A stretch of 64,000 nt of DNA, from positions 62,001-126,000 of the forward strand of contig NZ_JHWJ01000002.1 in the NCBI RefSeq assembly GCF_000687555.1. The letters run 5' to 3'. Positions 52,796 through 64,000 of this stretch are shown one piece after another; position 1 is the first letter of the stretch; each line of letters begins with the position of its first letter. Both the position numbers and the translations under genes were made by a program. The notes beneath the pieces are model-generated. The model had not been told where the DNA came from and did no database searches. It worked only from the letters and a program-made list of their open reading frames with translations. The DNA is from [Clostridium] aerotolerans DSM 5434. Lineage in GTDB: Bacteria > Bacillota > Clostridia > Lachnospirales > Lachnospiraceae.

Positions 52796-53723
52796 ATTTC
52801 CCTCCCCTTAAGTACATAAGAAAAGCTGTGTTTATTGATTCTTATGAAACCATTGCATGCCCCCTTCTCATCTTAACGGGGAATTGCTTTCTTTTCTCAC
52901 TACTTTCTGCTATGTTCTATTCAGATATTGCTAAATTTTCTGATTCGTTTCTATCAGATAGAGGTTTCTTCTGTTCTGGCTCTTCTTTGCTTTTTTTACT
53001 ATATATAAGCTGCGACACCACTTAGATTATTGATAGATTTATATATGAAAAATGAATCGCTGATAGGAGTTTCTATACGTGGTATACCTGCGTCTTTGTT
53101 TTTCTTATTTTATGAGCTAGTCAAATTATACAATTATTCAAGTCAGTAAACCATATAATCTCGACTACATATAACGCATAATTCGACATTTTGTTACAAT
53201 TTTAACTATTGGTCTTCTCCAAGCGTGGCTGAATTCTAGTTCTAAAAAATCAGGTTAACACTTTTTTGCTACAGCCTCACTTATAAACAGTTGTGCTTCT
53301 ATGAATAAGAGACTATATTGATATAAAATGAAAATGCCCTGCCTGAATCCGTTTTAATGAATTTAGGTAGGGCTCAAATGTATATTTAATAAATATATGT
53401 ATCAGCACATTGGCTGTTATAAGGATTACAAAAATGAATTTATTTGTGTTAGCACCAAAGAAAGCAAGCAATATGGGTATAAGTATATTGAATCCAAGCT
53501 CTAAATATTAAGTGGTAATAGATATCGGGTAACAATTTCTGCAATCTAAATTTTAAATCAATTAACAGCAAGGGAGCATAAAATATTACCCTTATCATTT
53601 CATAAGATTTTTAGAATATAAGAATCATAACAGGCGATTACTGCCTATTTCTCTCTCCTATCCGTTCCAATTATGTACCTTACTTATAGAAGGTACAATT
53701 AATTGTTTTATATTTTGTTTACC
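52796..53723. other. 928-bp region without a protein gene
   Basis: This is AT-rich DNA between the TIR-protein gene and the GH43 array. It holds a hairpin (53336-53373) and must contain the promoter of the GH43 array, which I could not place by consensus. The short frames here have no SD and no protein-like composition. The length is unusual for this gene-dense window, so a decayed gene or a small RNA could be present. Confidence 0.4.
53336..53373 (-). terminator. Hairpin, probable terminator of the TIR/SPFH cluster transcript
   Basis: GCCCTGCCTGAAT (53336-53348) pairs with ATTTAGGTAGGGC (53361-53373) along 13 positions, two being G-U. On the minus strand it is followed by CATTTTCATTTTAT. 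It lies 350 bases past the stop of the 53724 gene, so a long 3' leader or a separate small transcript is possible. Confidence 0.5.
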
Positions 53724-55367
53724 TTAGGAATCCTTTCCATACTTTGTCTTTGTTTGCCGTATCTGCTCATATAGTATTACAAGTTCATTCTCAATCTTAG
53801 ATCTTTTCCCCCATTGTAATACATTGAGTTTCATATTAGTTTTCTCTAACTCTCTTACTTCATCCCACAGCTCATTGATAACAGTTGTATATTCTTGCTC
53901 TAAACGTTCTTTCTCTTCTTTTTCTAAACGAGCCTTTTCTTCCTCACGCTGTCTCTCAAGAAGTTTTTCATTTGCAAAACCACGGCTGATATCAGCTTTC
54001 TCACTTGAATCCTTATATCCGTTTAAACCATCAAACAATTCTATAAGTTCTAAATAATCCTGTTCCGTCTCAGCCCCCTGAAGCCTGGATAGTCCCCTTT
54101 GATAAGTACTTTCAATGCGTTCAGTTTCAAGTCTATCATTTATTTTTTTGTTATATTCTTGAATTGTTTTTTTATAGCTTTCATCAGCAAATCGAACTGC
54201 TTTTTGATAATCCAAGTATCCATCCAGGGATTTTGTATGAGTGATTATGTCTTCGGAACAATGAAGTTTTAACAATGCTAAAAGCTTATAAAAGTACGCA
54301 TATGCATTTCTAGGTTCTAAGTCTAAAATTCTATCACAATATTCCTGGGCAGATTGAAAGTTTCCATCTTCCAGAAAAAGGCTGGTACGTTCTAATAACT
54401 GGGTAACACCAGGAGTCAAATATGATATTTCTGAATTACTCTGCAAGCGGCTATCTGTTTTATCTTCATTTGCAGACAATACCTTTTTTATACCACGGAT
54501 CAAATCTTGAATAAAACCAATCTTTGTCATATCCTGACTTTGAAACATGGATAATTCTTCAGGTAAATCGTATACATCTATGTCGCTGTAACAAGGAATT
54601 AAAAGCTTTCTTCTGTCTTTCTTGATTAATGATAAATAACGGCTCCATTCATTTTTAACCCATACTGCATTAAAATACTCTTGTTTTGTACCTATTACAA
54701 CCATAACTTTGGCACTATTTAATGCTGCAAATATGTATGGTTCGTATAGTTGACCCAGTTTATCTTCCAGAGTTATTCGAGCAAAGAAAACTTTATAGCC
54801 TTCCTCTGTTAACTCGTAATATATATCTTGTGCCAGTGCACTGTCTTTTGTACGGGTCCCCCCCTCTGAGGTTTCCTTATAGCATATAAATACATCGTAT
54901 GGCTCTTCTTGTGCAGAAATCACCAGAATGCCTTTTTGAATTTCAGCAATGCGCTTTGCTTCCAGCTCATATAAATCCTTTGTGTGTAAATCTTCAGCAT
55001 TTTCAATCGCGGAAAGATAATCGGCATCTGTCAGTATTGAATCACTATGAACTCTATGACAGGTTGGAACTCTCTCATGTGTCTTGGGATCCTCTACATA
55101 TTCAATACCAAACTTTGATAATACAAGTCCCCAATGTGCTTCCGCTGATGAAGCATTAATATTAAGAATATTTTCATACGCCATCATCGCCTTATCAAAA
55201 TTATTTTGGCGTCTAAAATGATTGGCTCTGTTATAAAGATTTGCTATTTGATCGTCAGTAGCTTTTGGTAATGTCATTGTACTACCACAATGATCACAAG
55301 TTCCGTATGTTTGATTTGCGGAAGCTTCAATATCCCCACCACACATTTTACATTTTAATAAAGCCAT
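53724..55367 (-). CDS. Zinc-ribbon / TIR-domain / helical-repeat protein
   Basis: This 547-residue protein has a zinc ribbon at the N-terminus (CKMC and CDHC; Cys6, 9, 24, 27) and TPR-like helices (about 40-145). A TIR domain (about 157-275) follows, with YDVFICYKETSEGG, GYKVFFARITLED and VMVVIGTKQEYFNAVWVKNEW. Glu240 in the W-x-x-x-E context fits the catalytic Glu of NAD+-cleaving TIR domains. More TPR-like repeats (about 320-415) and a Lys/Glu coiled coil end the protein. TIR proteins of bacteria often act as NADases in immunity. It is third after the SPFH and membrane genes. SD AAGGAG. Confidence 0.8.
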   Translation of the reverse strand: MALLKCKMCGGDIEASANQTYGTCDHCGSTMTLPKATDDQIANLYNRANHFRRQNNFDKAMMAYENILNINASSAEAHWGLVLSKFGIEYVEDPKTHERVPTCHRVHSDSILTDADYLSAIENAEDLHTKDLYELEAKRIAEIQKGILVISAQEEPYDVFICYKETSEGGTRTKDSALAQDIYYELTEEGYKVFFARITLEDKLGQLYEPYIFAALNSAKVMVVIGTKQEYFNAVWVKNEWSRYLSLIKKDRRKLLIPCYSDIDVYDLPEELSMFQSQDMTKIGFIQDLIRGIKKVLSANEDKTDSRLQSNSEISYLTPGVTQLLERTSLFLEDGNFQSAQEYCDRILDLEPRNAYAYFYKLLALLKLHCSEDIITHTKSLDGYLDYQKAVRFADESYKKTIQEYNKKINDRLETERIESTYQRGLSRLQGAETEQDYLELIELFDGLNGYKDSSEKADISRGFANEKLLERQREEEKARLEKEEKERLEQEYTTVINELWDEVRELEKTNMKLNVLQWGKRSKIENELVILYEQIRQTKTKYGKDS

Positions 55368-55488
55368 AGTAATATCTCCTTAACTACATTCATTTACTTC
55401 ATATTTATATGACCATTAAAATATATTTAATGGTATAGTCTCTTTTTCTTATTTTCTACTCTGGCCATACCATCAGGCCAAAAAAAAA

Positions 55489-56178
55489 CTATTTTAAAGC
55501 TATGCATTTTCTATTTCGTTCTGCAACTAACTGCTGTACTTCTTTACAAATGATTTTTATGATTGATAAATCATTATCTACTACAGATTTAGAAAGATCA
55601 GCAACTCTACTCTTGATTTGATTTTCTAAATCTGCAAGCTCTTGGCTGCTCATTGGATCGCTGTAACTTATCGACTCTGCAAGTTCATTTAGTATTTTTT
55701 TTACAGCCTCATCTGTAATTTTATCTGCCATGCCTTCTATTTCTATGTGTAAGGTCTTGATGTAAAATACTTTTTCTTTATTTCTACTATCAATGCGCTC
55801 GATTTCATCTTTTGAAATATCTACAGCAACCAATCCTATCAGACAAGCACCAAAAAGAATTGTATTTAGTAAAATGCCATATTGGAAAGGAATAAAGACT
55901 AAAAAAATTTCTAATAGTCCAAATACTAACTGCACAATTAAATAAGTCCACGCAAGGGCAATTAATGAACACCCATAAACTTTGCTTCTCAGCCCTTCTC
56001 TCCCAAGAGCATAAAAGCCAACTCCAGCAGTCAATAAAATAGCCGCTGTTGTAAAACTATACCCTACCCAAAACATTCCACCTCTGTCCAATGGCAGCAA
56101 AAAAGCAACTATATTATATACAGCCAATATGACAAACACCGATATAAGGGATAACCCTTTGTTTTTTGAAATAATCAT
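55489..56178 (-). CDS. Four-helix membrane protein with cytoplasmic helical domain
   Basis: This 229-residue protein has four hydrophobic helices in the first 120 residues (for example LSLISVFVILAVYNIVAFLL and TAAILLTAGVGFYAL). A cytoplasmic helical region of about 110 residues follows (LHIEIEGMADKITDEAVKKI, SSQELADLENQIKSRVADL). The frame is open from a TTG at 56208, but GGGAGGG selects the ATG at 56178. It lies 31 bases after the SPFH gene. No family was recognised. It could be the membrane platform for the SPFH protein and the TIR protein. Confidence 0.65.
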   Translation of the reverse strand: MIISKNKGLSLISVFVILAVYNIVAFLLPLDRGGMFWVGYSFTTAAILLTAGVGFYALGREGLRSKVYGCSLIALAWTYLIVQLVFGLLEIFLVFIPFQYGILLNTILFGACLIGLVAVDISKDEIERIDSRNKEKVFYIKTLHIEIEGMADKITDEAVKKILNELAESISYSDPMSSQELADLENQIKSRVADLSKSVVDNDLSIIKIICKEVQQLVAERNRKCIALK

Positions 56179-56208
56179 ATCTTTAGCCCTCCCTAAAAAT
56201 GCTGCCAA

Positions 56209-57378
56209 TTACAGGCTGCTCAGAATTTTTTTCTTTTCTTCTTCAAATTCTTCGTCTGACAATATTCCTGCTTCTTTCATTAATTTAAGCTTCTCAACCT
56301 TTTGTTTAAAAGATACCATGTCATCAGATCCTTCTGGTATTGCAGAGGAGTTTGTTGTAGTAATATTATTTTTAACAGAACCTAATGATGACATCAAAGG
56401 GTTTAAAGCATCATTAGTGATACCTGCAACTACCGCACCCATACCACCAGCGATTCCTCCCATCATCCCAAGTCCAATTCCTGTACTGGAATAATTACCG
56501 ACTCCTTCATTCATGGCAACCTTCTCGGCCACATCGTAACCACGTTCTGATTGATAGGTGTACCCTTCCTGCGCTCTCTTCTGTGCGATTGCAGCAGATT
56601 CTATCACCATTTTTTGTGCATTGGTCTGCTGATCGATTATCCCAACCTTTTGTCTCAGCTGTGCGTTAGCAACATCAGCATACTGTCTTATATGTATATC
56701 TTTAAAGGATTCATATGCTTTATCTCCATCAGGTTTTACAATGGTTGTTACAAAAAAGCGCTCAAGTGAGAGACCGTAATCATCAAAATCTGGAATCAAT
56801 TGCTTATGCAAGGCTAATGAAAGCTCATCCATATGCGAGTCGACTTCAAAGATACCAAATTCGCTATTTTGCATTGTCTGAGCCAGGTATGGCTTAACTC
56901 TGGCCATTAGGAAAGCTCGGAACATCTGAGTTAGTCCTGCCTGCCCCAGGGAACGTTCCGTACCGACTAGTTTCACAAGCAGTTTTCGAGAATCCGATAC
57001 GCGCAAGGCCATCTCCCCAGAAACTCCTATTTTAAGTGGAAACTTATAGGTCGGTTCCATATATTGAACCTGGCTATCTGTCCCCCACTTAATAGACATT
57101 TGCTCCGTTTTATTTATAAAATAGATCTCGCAATGAAATGGCGTTTGGTCATTTGTTGACTTACTTAAAAACTTCCTTACTAACGGTATATTCTGTGTTT
57201 CAACTGTATGACGTCCTGGACCAAATAAGTCCAGTGCTTGACCATTCATAAAAAATATTGCTTCTTGAGATTCATGTACGATTAGCTGTGTTCCAGTATT
57301 AAAATCTTCGATATTCGATTTCCATATAAATGTGTTGTTATCTCCTTCATACTCTACAATTTGAAAAATATCTGCCAT
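56209..57378 (-). CDS. SPFH-domain protein with C-terminal SHOCT motif
   Basis: This 389-residue protein belongs to the 'virion core protein / YdjI-like' SPFH group. An SPFH/band-7 fold (about 35-280) includes QEAIFFMNGQALDLFGPGRH, MALRVSDSRKLLVKLVG and DDYGLSLERFFVTTIVKPD. A helical stretch (NAQLRQKVGIIDQQTNAQKM) and a Gly/Met-rich linker (about 305-330) follow. The SHOCT end is KLKLMKEAGILSDEEFEEEK. B. subtilis YdjI recruits the PspA-type protein YdjF to the membrane under stress; a similar scaffold role is inferred. It is the first gene of the cluster, with an SD of GGGGAGG. Confidence 0.8.
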   Translation of the reverse strand: MADIFQIVEYEGDNNTFIWKSNIEDFNTGTQLIVHESQEAIFFMNGQALDLFGPGRHTVETQNIPLVRKFLSKSTNDQTPFHCEIYFINKTEQMSIKWGTDSQVQYMEPTYKFPLKIGVSGEMALRVSDSRKLLVKLVGTERSLGQAGLTQMFRAFLMARVKPYLAQTMQNSEFGIFEVDSHMDELSLALHKQLIPDFDDYGLSLERFFVTTIVKPDGDKAYESFKDIHIRQYADVANAQLRQKVGIIDQQTNAQKMVIESAAIAQKRAQEGYTYQSERGYDVAEKVAMNEGVGNYSSTGIGLGMMGGIAGGMGAVVAGITNDALNPLMSSLGSVKNNITTTNSSAIPEGSDDMVSFKQKVEKLKLMKEAGILSDEEFEEEKKKILSSL

Positions 57379-58164
57379 TTTTTCTTCCTCCCCTAAACTT
57401 GTTCTTTTTTGCGAATATTATTTTACCAATAGTTTACGTTTACCATTCTGTTTGGATAAATTGTATTTATAAAAACTAATTGATCTATTAAATCTCGCTT
57501 CCATATTGCTCTCTTCTCATTTATTACATATAAATATTTCATTATATTTTATATAATATTACATATTATAACATTAATGATTAACATCATATAGATTTTG
57601 TTTTATTATTTGGTGATAAAATAATTTGATAGATCCTAACTAAAAAGTAAAGAATTCTTAGTATTAGTTATACATTATATGTCTATATGTTTCAATATAA
57701 AAAAGGGGTTAACTTATATAATGATTTTAAAAATATAATTTTTTTTATATAGTTTTAATTTTATGATTCCAAGATTAACACTTTCAAACAGATTGGTTTA
57801 ACATGTTTAAAATTTTAATAGAGTTTATTAACATCACTCTTCTACTGTTTATACAAATATCCCTCCCCCAAAAAAATTCTTAATTTATTATCTTACCATT
57901 GAGGTATATAAATTAACTTATTAAAAAAAGGCAAAAACAGAGGTGGCTAATTAGAGCTCTTTGTTTTTGCCTTTTATTTAAGTACTTTCCCATCCAAATA
58001 AGAATCTGTATTAGTTGATTTTGGAGTGTTATGTCCAGTTTTGCACTAAACCCAATCATTATAATTTATATAATTGAATTTAACCTTTAATTCCTCTTTT
58101 TCATTTTTACGATTACATCTAGACAATTTGATAGGAAAGTTATGTTGATCTTCATTCTTTATTA
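57379..58164. other. 786-bp AT-rich region without a protein gene
   Basis: This separates the SPFH cluster from the toxin locus. It contains one strong terminator-like hairpin (57924-57975) and no SD-supported frame. The promoter of the SPFH cluster should be in the first 150 bases, but no consensus pair was found. The very low GC suggests recent or poorly conserved DNA at the boundary of the toxin locus. Confidence 0.4.
57924..57975. terminator. Strong A/T-rich hairpin terminator (bidirectional)
   Basis: AAAAAAAGGCAAAAACA pairs with TGTTTTTGCCTTTT, with GAG/CTC inside, leaving an 18-base loop. It probably ends the minus-strand toxin/immunity transcript, about 190 bases past the stop at 58165. 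Confidence 0.65.
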
Positions 58165-58635
58165 TTAAACTTTTAAAGTATAATATTTTTTTAAAAATTC
58201 ATTATATAATTCATCATAATCATTTTTCAATTCATATTCTAGCTCACTTATAAAAAAGTTACTATCACTTATATTTGCTTTAACTAGGGAATCTAAAAAA
58301 ACATCTGTAATATATTTATTCCAATATATAAATAATAAAAACAAATAAGTGATACATCCAATAGCATTTTCTTGAATCAATATTTTAATGTTTTTAATAA
58401 TAGTATGGGAAGCCAGTTCAGGATTAATTAAAACAGCTTTATTAATGATTTCTGTAACAAATTCATTTTGTTCAGTATTAACAGCCCCATCACTATATAA
58501 TTTCATTAAGTCTGGAATGTCATCTACACTAACTTCTTTTTCCGTACTTGAACAGAATTCATTCATCGTATAGATACCTTGATCATCTTCTTTTAAAGCA
58601 TAAGCTGTTTCATATAACTTCTTGTCATACATCAT
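58165..58635 (-). CDS. Probable immunity protein (second, orphan module)
   Basis: This 156-residue acidic, all-helical protein starts MMYDKKLYETAYALKEDD. It resembles alpha-solenoid immunity families of polymorphic toxin loci (an Imm30-like fold is possible). Its start overlaps the stop of the preceding 62-codon frame by one base (TAATG), with AAGGAGG just upstream, a spacing typical of toxin-immunity pairs. No signal peptide is present. It lies downstream of an Rhs toxin and its immunity gene, in the usual position for orphan modules. The family is not certain. Confidence 0.55.
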   Translation of the reverse strand: MMYDKKLYETAYALKEDDQGIYTMNEFCSSTEKEVSVDDIPDLMKLYSDGAVNTEQNEFVTEIINKAVLINPELASHTIIKNIKILIQENAIGCITYLFLLFIYWNKYITDVFLDSLVKANISDSNFFISELEYELKNDYDELYNEFLKKYYTLKV

Positions 58636-58988: not shown

Positions 58989-59462
58989 CTACAGACCTTT
59001 AGATATAACAATTCCTTTGGGAGACCCCCAGCTTAAGCTTTCTAGAAAAACATTTATTGCCTGATCTACGTCAGCTAAATCATATTTTACGTCAATTTGT
59101 TCTTCATCAAGCAATAAAATAATACAAAATGTATCTAATTCCTTGTATAATTCATAAAATAACACTATTAATTCATTATTTGCCTTTTGATTTTGCTCAT
59201 GGTTGTTAACCGCAAACTCCAAATCTGTAAGGCTTTCTCCTTGCAACGTAAAAGCGGTAAAATCGTATTGCTCTAAATTTTTTCCTACAATCTTTTTGTA
59301 GTAATTCCAATTATCATATTCTTGAAAATATACGGAGGATTGAAATTTATATTTCTTGGGATCTTGAGAAAACGTTTCTCCTCCCCATTCAACCAATATC
59401 TCTTCTAAATTCAACTTATTAATATCCTTCTTAGGTATTAATATATCAAGGATTAAATCCAT
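58989..59462 (-). CDS. Probable immunity protein of the adjacent Rhs toxin
   Basis: This 157-residue acidic protein starts MDLILDILIPKKDINKL and has mixed alpha/beta composition with no signal peptide. It lies 23 bases after the Rhs toxin stop on the same strand, the usual place for a cognate immunity gene. The frame opens with GTG at 59474, but GGAGGGG selects the ATG at 59462. The composition (EILVEWGGETFSQDPKKY, ELYKELDTFCIILLL) matches no immunity family that I can name. The assignment rests on position and size. Confidence 0.6.
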   Translation of the reverse strand: MDLILDILIPKKDINKLNLEEILVEWGGETFSQDPKKYKFQSSVYFQEYDNWNYYKKIVGKNLEQYDFTAFTLQGESLTDLEFAVNNHEQNQKANNELIVLFYELYKELDTFCIILLLDEEQIDVKYDLADVDQAINVFLESLSWGSPKGIVISKGL

Positions 59463-59485
59463 TTTCCCCTCCACTAGTATATTAT

Positions 59486-62400
59486 TTAGTTATTAAATGG
59501 CTCTGGTTTTCCTCGATACCAACCACCTTTTCCTTCTTTATCATACATAAATACATGTTGGTGAGGGTTCGTATGTTGATCCGCCCTACCATGATTACTC
59601 CAATGTACTTCACTCAAAGGAACATTTTTGCCATTTGCAGTTGGCCATGCTTCATCTAAGAAAGTAGCTGATTGCCTGTATACTTCACCCGTTTCTGAGC
59701 TTACCTTACCTCCTATAACAGTATGAGGACCGTTAGCATTTGGATCAGGTAACGGAATATCTTGCCCATTAACTCGCTGCTTAGCTACAGGTATAGGATT
59801 ACCATCAGCATCTTTAGGTATATAAACTTTATCACCCTCAGCAGGATTATCATTTTTACACTCATTATTATTCTTTTTACTATACCCACTAGGATCATAA
59901 TAAACCACAGGATTATTCCCGCAATAAGAATAAAGATTCAGCCCATCTCCCCGATAAACATCTTCCTGGTGGAAGCGTCCAATCACTGGATTATAATATC
60001 TGGCCCTTAGATAATACTGCCCTGTCTCCTGATCATATTGCTGGCCTGTATACAGAATCCTACTTTTAATCTCCTCTGACTTTTGACGTATGGCTCCAAA
60101 AGCATCGTACTCATAAAAGCTTTCTATTTGACCATGTTCTCCCGTTATGTACGCAGTACTGTTCCGCTCGTCCAAATGGTAGGCATGAATGCCTGCATCG
60201 TTTTTCTTCTCACTCCCAGCAACACCGTACCCTAAAATATATCTGGCACTAACAGATTGGTCCACTTCGGTCTCTGCCTGAAGTTCCCCATTATAATAAA
60301 TAAATCTGGAGGCTTTTCCATTTACATTTGTGCCGACTCTTAAGAACTCTCCATCGTAGAAATTCTCATAACGGAAATTATCACCGATTACTTCCGTCTG
60401 CTCACCAAACGGATTATATCCATACCTCCTCTTTTCGGAATTTCCCTGCTCTTCAAGGATATTCCCTTGCTTATCGTATCGGTATACCCAGCTTTCTCCC
60501 TGAGTTTTTCTTTCGGTCAGCTGATTTCTTCTATTATAACAGTACGTTTCTTTCCCTGCAACAGACTCCTTCCCAATACGGTTTCCGCAATAATCATATT
60601 CATAGGAAATGTTCGTTCCATCATAACTTTCCTGTATTAAGCGATTTAAAGTATCATATCGATATGCGATTCTTGTTTCTGACGCTTCTCCTTTTATTCC
60701 AGATTCTACTGCTGACTTTCCAAAAAGAATACGGCTTCCGCTTTTTGCAATTCGATTTCCATTTAGATCGTATTCATATCGGAAATCAAACAGTGGTTGA
60801 TTATCTGAAACGCAGGTTGCCAGTCGGCTGATATTTCCATCCGTATCATATTCATAAATGGTTCTCGCTCCATTTTTATGATAAATGGATTTTAGCTTCC
60901 CATCCGGATAATGACTGTATTCCACTAGTTTTTCATTACCTTCTGCATTAATATAACTTAGACTTCCTCTCCAATCATACCCATAATGCAATGTTTTACC
61001 AGTAATGTCCGTAAGGGTCTTCAAAGCACCATTCTTATCATATGTACAAGCCAAAAGTGGTTGGCCAGAGGATGTTTTTTTCAAGAGCTTACCGTCAGGT
61101 CTGTATTCATAAGTATAAATGAATCCTCCTGAAATAGCTTTCTTCTTCATTCCAAAGGTATCATACTCCCAACTTCTGGTCACCAGGTTCTCACCATTTT
61201 TGTCACAGCCTGCCTCGTAAACAGGGTTTCCATCTACATTATAGGCAGTTTTTACCTGATTTCCGTTTCGGTCCGTATGAAGAACTCTTCTGCCTTCCCT
61301 GTCATATCGGAAGGTTTCACTATTTCCATCCTGGTCAATTATTTCACAAACTTTCCCTTGACTATTATATCGGTAAGTAATCGAACCTCCATTGGAATCC
61401 GTTGTAGTGGTTATCAGTCCACTGCTATTGTAGGAGTATGTTTCATTACCGCCATCTGCATATCGAATTCCGCAAATACGTCCCCAACCATCAATATCGT
61501 AGCCTGTTTTATTTTGATTACCATCTGCGACTCCAGTTATACGGCCATTGGAATCATAGGTGAAAGCCTGGGCGGGCTTTTTCTGTTTTTTGCTTCTTTC
61601 AGTATAGATTTCAGTTTCCATTCCGTGAACTCCATACTGATAGGTGAACTCATTTCCACATGCAACCCGTTTTTTGGAAATGTTTCCGTCTGAAAGATAC
61701 TGATTATCCTCAAGGACAGTTCCAGCCCCATCTATTTTTGATATTAAGTTTCCGTATTGATCGTAGGAATAATGAAAGCTGTTTTCTATTTCTGATGCTT
61801 CCCCACCTTTTGGCAGGATCTCCTTTTCCAGACGATCATTTTTATCATAATGGTAGCTAAACACTGGACCTAAACAGTCACTGGCATTGATAATTCGGTC
61901 TTTCAGATCATAGTCATAGGTTATTTCCCAAATCTCGCCGCCTTTTCCCTGTCTGGATATCTTCGTTATGTTTCCGGCAAGATCATAGGTAACAAAGGTG
62001 GAACGGTCAATGCCATTTTGATGGTCAAGCATCCGCTCTAAGCTTAGACGGTCACAAGAATCGTACTCACGGAATATCTCATATCCTTCTGGAGTTTTTA
62101 TTCGGATTCGGTTCCCATTTTCATCGTAAGTATAACTGGTGATGGCATACTTTGCCTCACCCGGTATTGCAGGCAATCCACTGTCTAATTCTTCCTTTAC
62201 TTCTGTAAGTCTTCCTGCTTTATCGTATCCGTAGTGTATGATTTGACGGATTTCATCGGATATAACCTTCTCCTCACAGATCTTTTTCCCCTGTACATCG
62301 TAGGAAAAGCGGATGACTGCTCCCATGCCATCTTCCACACAGATTAAACGGTCCCTTTTGTCATAAGAGTATTTTAAATGGAGTTCACTGCCTCCGTTTT

Positions 62401-64000
62401 CCTTTTGCTGTCCATCGGGGCTCCAATAACCTCCCCTGTGATATTCGCTGATTTTGTTGCCGTTGGCATCATAGTCATAGGTTGTCCTCTGGTATAATAC
62501 CTCCTGTTCTTCCTCCTTTACAGGACGCAGAATTTCTAAAAGCTGACCTTTTAGATCGTAAGTATACCAAGTGGTCCGTCCCAGAGAATCTGTTTTTCTG
62601 GTTTGGTTTCCTAACAGATCATAGGTGTATTGTGCCTGAATACTTCCATCAGGTCCTGTGACTCGCTCCAGATGACCTGCATCATCATAACTATACTGCC
62701 ATCCTGCACCATCATCGGCTTTAGGGTCATAGGACTCTGGGAAAATGTGTTTTATACGATTACCATTGGCATCGTAAAACATTTGTTCACAGCCTCCATC
62801 GGGATATCGAATCCGAATCTGGTTCCCATTGCTGTCATACTCATAAGTAATTCCTTCTCCATTGTCAGAGTCACTATGATATGCGTTGGGATGAATATGT
62901 TTCAGTACATTTCCCTCACCATCAAGAATCTGCCTGTCATGACTGCCATCAGGACGTAAGGTATCAATTCTTCGATCCAGGAAATCGTATCGATAGGTAT
63001 ATTCTCCGGTTTGATTTTTCCAGGCTTTAGGGGGATACATAGCTAAGAGCCGTCCCATACCGTCATAGAGATAGCGGGACTCGTTGCCTTCCCCATCCCG
63101 TACAACGGTGCGGTGATTCTTTGCATTGTATCCATATTCTCTACGACCACAGCTATCTTCCTCAGCCATTAAGCGCCCCATGGCATCGTATTCAAAACGT
63201 ACTTCTTCTCCATTAGGGAACTCGATGGAGGAAGGCTTTCCACAATTCTGGGAATAAGTGTATTTAGTGGTTTTCCCTAAGGCATCTGTTTCCTCCAGAA
63301 GCCTTCCCTTACGGTCATATAAATAGGTACGGGTAATCCAGCCTTCTCCGTCAAACCGCCGTTCTCTCTCTGCTGTAAGATTATGATTTTTATCATATTC
63401 GTAAATGAATCTTCGACCGGCATTGTCACTTTTTTTCACCAGATCTCCGGCATCATCGTATTGATAGACCGTGTTCAGCCAACCTGTTTTATTTTCCTGA
63501 ATAATACGCCCATCTTCATCGTAAGACCATTCCGTTTTATGACCCAGGCGGTCAGTCTCGCTGATCCGGTCTCCCTTTTCATTATATTGGAACAGGGTTT
63601 TTGTACCATCTTCATAAGAAATGGAAAGGATCTGCATATCTTTTCCATAGTGATACGTGACGGTTTTATTTCCTACGCTGCTGTAGACAATTACCTTCCG
63701 CTCCTCGTCTACATACTCCGCTTTATAAAAATCTCCGTTTGCCAGGACTTGATGAACCATTCTGCCGGCTTCATCGTAAGTATTTTCCAGATACATTACC
63801 TTTGCCTGGTCGATTGCTCTGGTTAGATATCCTTCTCTATCGTATTCGTAATGAGTGACTCCGTAATCCATATGAACCACATCAGACAACCGCCCATCCT
63901 CATACCGGTACTGCATGGTTCTTCCAAGAGTATCTGTCAGCTGAATGAGACGTCCTTCTCTCATGGTAACGTTAATTTCATAGTTAAGAGCGGTTGTGAT
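59486..64000 (-). CDS. Rhs/YD-repeat polymorphic toxin, C-terminal 1,504 residues (runs off right edge)
   Basis: The frame is open to the right edge (ITTALNYEINVTMREG precedes the internal Met at 63964), so the gene is partial. It consists of dozens of YD repeats of about 20 residues (YDxxGR/N pattern). The Rhs core ends in the conserved block RARYYNPVIGRFHQEDVYRG and YYDPSGY. The toxin part (about the last 150 residues) contains GPHTVIGGKVSSETGEVYRQ, SEVHWSNHGRADQHTNPHQH and GWYRGKPEPF. The His-rich motif suggests a metal-dependent or RNase-like toxin; it resembles a polymorphic-toxin family (type 24), but this is from memory. It is followed by an immunity gene. Confidence 0.88.
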   Translation of the reverse strand: MTTALNYEINVTMREGRLIQLTDTLGRTMQYRYEDGRLSDVVHMDYGVTHYEYDREGYLTRAIDQAKVMYLENTYDEAGRMVHQVLANGDFYKAEYVDEERKVIVYSSVGNKTVTYHYGKDMQILSISYEDGTKTLFQYNEKGDRISETDRLGHKTEWSYDEDGRIIQENKTGWLNTVYQYDDAGDLVKKSDNAGRRFIYEYDKNHNLTAERERRFDGEGWITRTYLYDRKGRLLEETDALGKTTKYTYSQNCGKPSSIEFPNGEEVRFEYDAMGRLMAEEDSCGRREYGYNAKNHRTVVRDGEGNESRYLYDGMGRLLAMYPPKAWKNQTGEYTYRYDFLDRRIDTLRPDGSHDRQILDGEGNVLKHIHPNAYHSDSDNGEGITYEYDSNGNQIRIRYPDGGCEQMFYDANGNRIKHIFPESYDPKADDGAGWQYSYDDAGHLERVTGPDGSIQAQYTYDLLGNQTRKTDSLGRTTWYTYDLKGQLLEILRPVKEEEQEVLYQRTTYDYDANGNKISEYHRGGYWSPDGQQKENGGSELHLKYSYDKRDRLICVEDGMGAVIRFSYDVQGKKICEEKVISDEIRQIIHYGYDKAGRLTEVKEELDSGLPAIPGEAKYAITSYTYDENGNRIRIKTPEGYEIFREYDSCDRLSLERMLDHQNGIDRSTFVTYDLAGNITKISRQGKGGEIWEITYDYDLKDRIINASDCLGPVFSYHYDKNDRLEKEILPKGGEASEIENSFHYSYDQYGNLISKIDGAGTVLEDNQYLSDGNISKKRVACGNEFTYQYGVHGMETEIYTERSKKQKKPAQAFTYDSNGRITGVADGNQNKTGYDIDGWGRICGIRYADGGNETYSYNSSGLITTTTDSNGGSITYRYNSQGKVCEIIDQDGNSETFRYDREGRRVLHTDRNGNQVKTAYNVDGNPVYEAGCDKNGENLVTRSWEYDTFGMKKKAISGGFIYTYEYRPDGKLLKKTSSGQPLLACTYDKNGALKTLTDITGKTLHYGYDWRGSLSYINAEGNEKLVEYSHYPDGKLKSIYHKNGARTIYEYDTDGNISRLATCVSDNQPLFDFRYEYDLNGNRIAKSGSRILFGKSAVESGIKGEASETRIAYRYDTLNRLIQESYDGTNISYEYDYCGNRIGKESVAGKETYCYNRRNQLTERKTQGESWVYRYDKQGNILEEQGNSEKRRYGYNPFGEQTEVIGDNFRYENFYDGEFLRVGTNVNGKASRFIYYNGELQAETEVDQSVSARYILGYGVAGSEKKNDAGIHAYHLDERNSTAYITGEHGQIESFYEYDAFGAIRQKSEEIKSRILYTGQQYDQETGQYYLRARYYNPVIGRFHQEDVYRGDGLNLYSYCGNNPVVYYDPSGYSKKNNNECKNDNPAEGDKVYIPKDADGNPIPVAKQRVNGQDIPLPDPNANGPHTVIGGKVSSETGEVYRQSATFLDEAWPTANGKNVPLSEVHWSNHGRADQHTNPHQHVFMYDKEGKGGWYRGKPEPFNN

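Follow-up and report, generated by a model that had tools for sequence, protein, structure and literature searches.

In Bacillus subtilis, the SPFH protein YdjI and its membrane partners YdjG and YdjH localise PspA, according to the part of PMC8581546 consulted. TIR proteins that cleave NAD+ (NADases) are known from other settings, among them SpbK in phage defence (PMC12847820) and TIR proteins of gut bacteria, Clostridia included, that are active as NADases in vitro (PMC9092222), each as given in the consulted portions of those papers. The locus analysed here brings both kinds of protein together. It lies in a stretch of 64,000 nt (the window; position 1 is its first letter) of contig NZ_JHWJ01000002.1 of [Clostridium] aerotolerans DSM 5434, where three intact, contiguous open reading frames (ORFs) on the minus strand at 53724-57378 encode an SPFH protein, a membrane protein, and a TIR protein, the order in which an earlier note, made from the sequence alone, had read them. 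The three genes form a conserved unit. TIR NADases and operons of SPFH proteins with membrane anchors are both known, and what appears to be new is their joining and an exchangeable third partner.

The likeness to pspA-ydjGHI consists of an SPFH gene and a membrane-protein gene in one operon, a zinc-ribbon partner, and zinc ribbons on the SPFH C-termini of relatives. The differences are a TIR output here and a membrane protein that belongs to no Pfam family, the comparison with YdjI being one by description only. Thoeris is like the present locus in having a TIR domain with the Glu motif, and there is a weak similarity to the ThsB profile (12 of 22 TIR domains, best E = 5.1e-5); against NCBIfam ThcB4 the window TIR protein scores 19.4 bits, far below the cut-off of 220. 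Unlike Thoeris, the unit has SPFH and membrane partners and no ThsA-like gene, and a SIR2-like match, itself below cut-off, occurs at relative locus L066 alone. We therefore dropped membership in Thoeris, the ThsB-type TIR being below the family cut-off with no ThsA partner in the unit. SpbK and the other single-gene TIR abortive-infection proteins differ in that here there is a three-gene unit with a scaffold and a membrane protein. The gut bacterial TIR NADases resemble the present family as TIRs of gut bacteria, Clostridia among them, and some of the tested proteins may belong to it. No published SPFH-TIR system was found in the open-access literature searched, just as the earlier note knew of no described system with this set, and none is described in the consulted parts of PMC7159879, PMC13239085, PMC4936722, and PMC13142454. 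The "CesT/Tir" of a Psp survey (PMC11237479, in the part consulted) was rejected as a lead, since the name there denotes a type III secretion chaperone rather than a TIR domain.

Conservation of the three genes

Of the 25 genus genomes, a set to which the window's own belongs, 4 encode a member of the membrane-protein family, and the same 4 have the full-length TIR protein and a close SPFH protein (at least 84% identity); beyond these, a TIR remnant of about 78 residues is found in G019 and an SPFH relative of 35% identity in G021. The order SPFH-membrane-TIR on one strand is kept in all 4. A search of 397 family genomes located the membrane protein in 22 of them; TIR matches, counting the weak ones, came from 41. 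In the locus count, every membrane gene has an SPFH gene less than 300 bp away on the same strand (26/26), and a TIR domain is encoded in the same stretch for 20 of the 26, so the lack of a conserved neighbourhood, the outcome the earlier note had held out against itself, is excluded. That count covers 46 loci plus the window, excluding L002-L005, the viral contigs, and L189-L205, and its 56 TIR matches include split ones. Counted from the TIR side, SPFH is within 12 kb in 24/34 genomes, these being 31 of the 41 family matches and three genus genomes, with 10 weaker-matching genomes left out. The co-occurrence figures rest on whole-genome searches because a scan of genome contigs with the membrane-protein alignment yielded 4 loci only.

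A looser profile adds membrane proteins outside the 26-gene count in G323, beside SPFH, and in G222, where there is no SPFH. At the phylum level, the membrane profile matched 12 of 348 genomes, G000 and G204 being already known. Six of the 10 new genomes were examined and four left out; SPFH adjoins the membrane gene in G710, G651, G480, and G441, and does not in G460 and G637. The distant relatives include a Treponema with TIR and a Kiritimatiellaeota metagenome-assembled genome with the SPFH and membrane genes only. Because order and strand are conserved across genomes, the trio is not a product of chance.

The SPFH protein, which the earlier note had set beside the YdjI type, matches Pfam Band_7_1 with E = 4e-36. 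Its SHOCT end, also named there, is recognizable with E = 5.2e-6 at 26.5 bits, slightly below the cut-off of 27, and many relatives have zinc ribbons at the SPFH C-terminus. The membrane protein finds nothing significant in Pfam, NCBIfam, or PADLOC. It is taken to start at ATG 56178, and an in-frame TTG at 56208 would give 10 amino acids more. Helices were called throughout by a simple hydropathy rule, which predicts 3 in the window protein and 4 in many relatives; hence, the four-helix label previously given to this copy rests on the family. In a PDB search, the membrane-protein alignment had only chance-level matches and the SPFH alignment had zero. By eye, the membrane proteins at L123:13331-14617 and L082:7224-8397 have a long insert following the first helix, possibly located outside the cell.

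The TIR protein and its receptor-like relatives

TIR_2 aligns to residues 159-281 of the window protein (E = 8.6e-12, 46.1 bits, cut-off 28). The N-terminal Cys4 ribbon and TPR-like arms seen earlier are present as CxxC..CxxC at residues 6-27 and as TPR matches near 44-81 and 330-367, with Cys at each of the four ribbon positions in 51 of 52 aligned relatives and a gap in the remaining one. The Glu proposed as conserved, Glu240 (E240), is kept in 52/52 well-matched TIR domains (those exceeding 120 residues at E < 1e-20; paralogues or near-identical copies contribute several), as is W241, with W236 and N239 in 51/52 each. In a looser 52-protein alignment, A4, made from 52 of the 58 TIR-matching ORFs with six omitted that are mostly fragments, E240 is at 90% or more and not invariant. 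Glu240 stands four residues past Trp236, the same as the plant TIR Glu in a structure-profile alignment, and it is the putative catalytic Glu of the W-x-x-x-E motif, by what is known of the TIR family. The WxxNEW motif is intact in the window, which excludes a degenerate TIR at the motif level. A profile of 22 TIR domains run against solved structures gives E = 4.1e-5 to a Toll-like receptor and weaker scores, above 1e-3, to plant L6, RPV1, and RUN1 and to AbTIR. From these motifs, the window TIR protein is a probable NADase; its family is large, the database containing at least 7,999 relatives.

The C-terminal side of the protein is another matter. Mean identity to the window protein is 0.47 in the zinc ribbon, 0.51 in the helical part, and 0.63 in the TIR domain, falling to 0.16 in the C-terminal tail. 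Among 52 relatives, the tail domains are DUF6273 in 10, RCC1 repeats in 3, leucine-rich repeats (LRRs) in 1, and a C-type lectin in 1, just below cut-off. Many of the TIR relatives have a transmembrane helix of their own and a probable outer domain. For single-helix TIRs with tails over 100 amino acids, the TIR side of the helix is the more positive in 17 of 18, by just one charge in 4 of these, and the exception, L004_11, is a fragment of a frame-broken gene. The TIR would therefore presumably be on the inner side, which suggests that single-helix relatives keep TIR inside the cell and the variable tail outside. TIR genes also occur in tandem at several loci, 2 to 4 per row, with 4 at L123 and 3 at L131.

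The protein at L079 has TIR, one predicted helix (346-364), and then LRRs (550-918) in a single chain. As in Toll-like receptors, all three are in one chain; unlike them, the TIR is N-terminal, so the order is reversed, and the protein is bacterial. The layout is found in 1 of the 52 relatives and not in the window copy, which has no transmembrane helix by hydropathy and no LRR by Pfam. The Toll-like layout is likely convergent.

With its own helix and probable outer domain, the TIR protein of these relatives resembles a receptor whose cytoplasmic end is the TIR, and on that account sensing may sit in the TIR protein itself. The proposal that the SPFH/membrane pair is the sensor thus loses ground for such relatives and keeps it for the window copy, which lacks these parts. 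Tentatively, and at somewhat less than even odds, we consider a bacterial family of membrane immune receptors in which cytoplasmic heads of the zinc-ribbon-TPR-TIR NADase kind would be combined with swappable outer sensors (DUF6273, RCC1 propellers, LRRs, lectins). Such receptors, in some cases arranged in tandem, would be clustered by a dedicated SPFH/four-helix scaffold that is alternatively wired to ESCRT-III/Vps4-like, HerA-like, or kinase partners. If so, bacteria would possess a membrane alarm of the plug-in type, laid out in a Toll-like manner and owing its spread partly to phages. A role in TIR units would explain the DUF6273 and RCC1 tails on some members of the TIR family.

Mobility and exchange of partners

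When the window DNA is compared with that of G020, G014, or G015, similarity spans the three genes at 73-74% identity and ends near their edges, except for an upstream block of about 55 bases common to the window and G020. G020 has the cassette alone in common with G014 and G015, at 76% identity, and those two have their downstream surroundings in common. With pairwise likeness limited in this way to the cassette, the genus therefore presents it in three unlike surroundings. In G019, the flanks are 95-96% identical to those of G020, 3.3 kb is missing, and the TIR gene 3' end is retained. An 8-base overlap between the matching flanks at that point is consistent with a deletion, and the cassette apparently has been deleted once, in G019.

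The upstream block contains TTGAAW-N17-TATAACTAATA, a promoter-like pattern that is exact in the window (57662-57695), in G020, G014, and G015, and in the cassette-less stretch of G019. In the genome that the window comes from, the pattern occurs once exactly and once with 1 mismatch, and the chance expectation in the window at up to 2 mismatches is a mean of 0.08. Because the pattern was defined on 4 aligned upstream regions, which it then matched, exact matches in them are expected, and the telling part is that the spacing is kept in unlike surroundings. Control by sigma-W was considered and is not claimed.

Searching IMG/VR with the SPFH alignment turned up 6 loci. The contig of L144 encodes a virion protein, an endolysin, a 521-aa (amino acid) ORF, a resolvase-like ORF, SPFH, the membrane protein, a 153-aa ORF, and a complete 821-aa TIR protein with DUF6273 and WVKNEW. 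L143 has a terminase, portal, Abi_2, a resolvase-like ORF, SPFH, the membrane protein, a 162-aa ORF, a zinc-ribbon protein with weak TPR, and a major head protein, and L141 has a tail sheath, a tail protein, an XkdN-like protein, SPFH, the membrane protein, and a zinc-ribbon protein before the contig ends. At L142, SPFH, the membrane protein, and a zinc-ribbon/TPR-like protein are near a ResIII helicase and PLD-like and SbcC-like genes; L145 and L146 have SPFH and a zinc-ribbon protein with no membrane-protein match. The resolvases were assigned by eye, as were the zinc ribbons of the partners at L142, L143, L145, and L146. A viral setting is seen through relatives, with TIR in L144 and without it in L141, L142, and L143. 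A separate IMG/VR scan for TIR found the L144 contig and L140, the latter a TIR ORF near recombinase-like ORFs with no SPFH in the stretch. The resolvase-like ORFs, at L143:7083-7697 and L144:6817-7491, are directly 5' of SPFH and may mark a cargo slot in viral contigs.

The SPFH-membrane pair is not specific to TIR. A survey of 200 family genomes gave SPFH matches with E of 1e-20 or lower in 67, and 25 of these reach about 1e-45, a split into two groups that was drawn by eye. In these 25 (for G037 and G188, the first of two places was examined), the membrane gene is directly beside SPFH in 18 and one gene away in G220, and TIR is in the locus in 9. Where TIR is lacking, the partners include small zinc-ribbon membrane proteins, zinc-ribbon/TPR proteins, HerA-like ATPases, a PASTA kinase, and a Snf7-like/Vps4-like pair. 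Spread with these other partners would make the SPFH-membrane pair older than its TIR version, and the best reading of the pair is a scaffold with exchangeable partners.

HerA-like ATPases beside SPFH-membrane pairs were assigned by Pfam at L077:11447-17019 and L199:11896-14568 and by clustering at L002:13374-17639 and L005:10706-13408. Some of these loci have small partner genes, one of them faintly metallopeptidase-like, and the HerA-like loci are possibly a separate system. At L197:9101-16001, zinc-ribbon/kinase proteins lie close to the pair; one of them bears PASTA and Listeria-Bacteroides repeats, and an FHA-like end was seen by eye. L196:6934-8700 and L080:5497-7226 have a Snf7-like protein and an AAA/Vps4_C ATPase beside the same kind of SPFH. 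The Snf7-like scores are below cut-off in both (L196, E = 4.2e-5 and 23.7 bits against 27.3; L080, E = 0.038), the two proteins are 66% identical, and L196 has no membrane-protein match whereas L080 has one together with a weak MIT match. By Pfam, there is no PspA/ESCRT-III-type partner among the three window proteins; the Snf7-like ones are in those two relatives only. In G441, the pair is beside an ORF that by eye resembles obgE. Inside TIR/SPFH loci, a RES domain (L065:4557-5291, E = 4.8e-15) and a SIR2-like domain (L066:1771-2817, E = 0.002, below cut-off) suggest NAD-targeting, and DUF2971 genes, which are NAD- or conflict-type neighbours, are in the L066 and L002 loci.

Possible function and local features

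We read the unit as a mobile three-gene conflict (defence) module, in which a membrane scaffold would hold a TIR NADase that is released upon envelope or phage attack, and give this a probability of roughly 0.6. By analogy with YdjI, YdjG, and YdjH, the membrane protein would anchor an oligomeric SPFH scaffold at the inner membrane face. The zinc-ribbon-TPR half of the TIR protein would dock onto the scaffold, which we infer because that half is conserved and the C-terminus is not. An envelope disturbance, such as phage adsorption or genome entry, would then rearrange the scaffold or a receptor tail, the TIR domains would cluster, and the conserved Glu would enable NAD+ cleavage, with the cell arrested or killed. 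In the window copy, with no helix seen in the TIR protein, sensing would go through the SPFH/membrane pair; elsewhere, the scaffold pair would serve other partners.

The main rival is an envelope-stress response of the Psp/YdjI type, in which the TIR would adjust metabolism or produce an NAD-derived signal locally and would have no role against phage. It is encouraged by an SPFH of the Band_7_1 kind, given that YdjI with YdjG/YdjH localises PspA in B. subtilis (PMC8581546, in the part consulted), and by the same SPFH kind being beside the Snf7-like/Vps4-like pair and the obgE-looking ORF, a housekeeping-like place. The TIR version is, however, patchy (4/25 in the genus), placed in unlike surroundings, apparently lost in G019, present on a viral contig, and accompanied by tandem paralogues with variable tails, so that we rate the stress response as unlikely, though the most serious competitor. 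Some TIR domains serve as scaffolds, and zinc-ribbon/TPR arms would suit a non-enzymatic adaptor that acts in complex assembly only; an adaptor has no need of Glu240 in its WxxNEW setting, which is kept in 52/52 well-matched domains, and we regard this role as improbable. A secreted effector that disturbs host Toll signalling, like the proposed TirE of Enterococcus faecium, would be in keeping with the TIR genes on phage-like elements reported in such cases (PMC6304867, in the part consulted), yet the placing of TIR on the presumed inner side in 17/18 single-helix relatives, the SPFH partner, and the relatives in Treponema (with TIR) and the Kiritimatiellaeota genome (SPFH and membrane gene only) make it very improbable, although signal peptides were not searched for. 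Chance neighbours, for which nothing speaks beyond a weak terminator and the 121-nt gap, are refuted by the order, strand, and adjacency conserved across genomes, and were dropped as having next to no probability.

Several results weigh against the defence module. PADLOC 2.0 matched 0 families for the three whole proteins at E up to 1, and the TIR domains alone had only weak PADLOC matches, PDC-S66 in 16/22 (best E = 5.2e-6) besides the ThsB ones above. Six membrane genes are without TIR: in G047 the gene is at a contig end, in G272 the stretch opens inside an apparent TIR-protein end, and in G193, G173, G176, and G048 there is none. The stretch examined lacks SPFH in ten of the 34 genomes with TIR, some of these stretches being at contig ends, and membrane-protein matches without SPFH exist beyond the 26 in G460 and G637 and as a 127-aa match in G222. 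On the viral side, TIR is on one of the six IMG/VR loci, L141 and L143 have a zinc-ribbon protein in its place, probing IMG/VR with the full TIR alignment A2 gave no hit, and INPHARED phages and PLSDB plasmids have no TIR relative. The window copy is outside any recognised prophage and shows mobility only. Finally, a TIR-like paralogue at L084:10579-13221, between two TIR-bearing genes, by eye is without the usual WxxNEW and is possibly an inactive partner.

The earlier interpretation as an immune or stress module is, overall, partly supported: the mobile and partly virus-borne distribution fits defence or conflict, and the points corrected or extended are the scaffold pair, which is not TIR-specific, the sensing, which may lie in the TIR protein of some relatives, and the weak terminator. 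Bacterial TIR immunity is known mostly from cytosolic sensors. A TIR unit on an SPFH scaffold, with probable outer sensors in relatives, would join envelope surveillance (Psp/flotillin) to NAD-depleting immunity, and would provide a first testable role for an uncharacterised membrane-protein family that is nearly always SPFH-adjacent in the loci seen.

Table 1. Coordinates in the window of the three genes and of associated features
Feature	Position	Strand	Basis
SPFH (Band_7_1) protein, 389 aa, C-terminal SHOCT-like end (residues 360-386)	56209..57378	-	ORF and Pfam
Multi-helix membrane protein, 229 aa, conserved charged tail ending ERNRKCxxLK	55489..56178	-	Family unknown to Pfam, NCBIfam, PADLOC
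Zinc-ribbon/TPR/TIR/TPR/charged-tail protein, 547 aa	53724..55367	-	ORF and Pfam
Cys4 zinc ribbon of TIR protein, residues 6-27	55287..55352	-	Cys kept in relatives
TIR domain, residues 153-298	54474..54911	-	Pfam and domain alignments
Putative catalytic Glu240 codon (WVKNEW)	54648..54650	-	Conservation; aligned with plant TIR Glu
Promoter-like element TTGAAA-N17-TATAAC(TAATA)	57662..57695	-	Common to genus cassette copies
Hairpin 3' of TIR gene, weak terminator on gene strand	53674..53697		Folding z and T-tail position

The spacing proposed as 31 and 121 bases is correct for the second gap, between the membrane and TIR genes, and comes to 30 nt for the first. The 121 nt are peculiar to the window copy, the same gap being 23 nt in G020 and about 22 nt in G014 and G015. 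At 55368-55488, the window has about 98 bases more than the G020 copy. Strong hairpins are predicted there (z = -3.2), and the extra bases may be a regulator or a small inserted element. The hairpin after the TIR gene, put forward as terminator-like, is real by folding score (z = -3.03), but it is weak as a terminator for these three genes because its T-rich tail is on the plus strand, and the idea of a good terminator on the gene strand was dropped for this reason. Directly upstream of the cassette, a large RHS/YD-repeat protein with hallmarks recognized by eye is encoded on the minus strand at 59486-63964, followed on that strand by two small genes at 58989-59474 and 58165-58635 that could be immunity genes, the three together being a probable polymorphic toxin locus.

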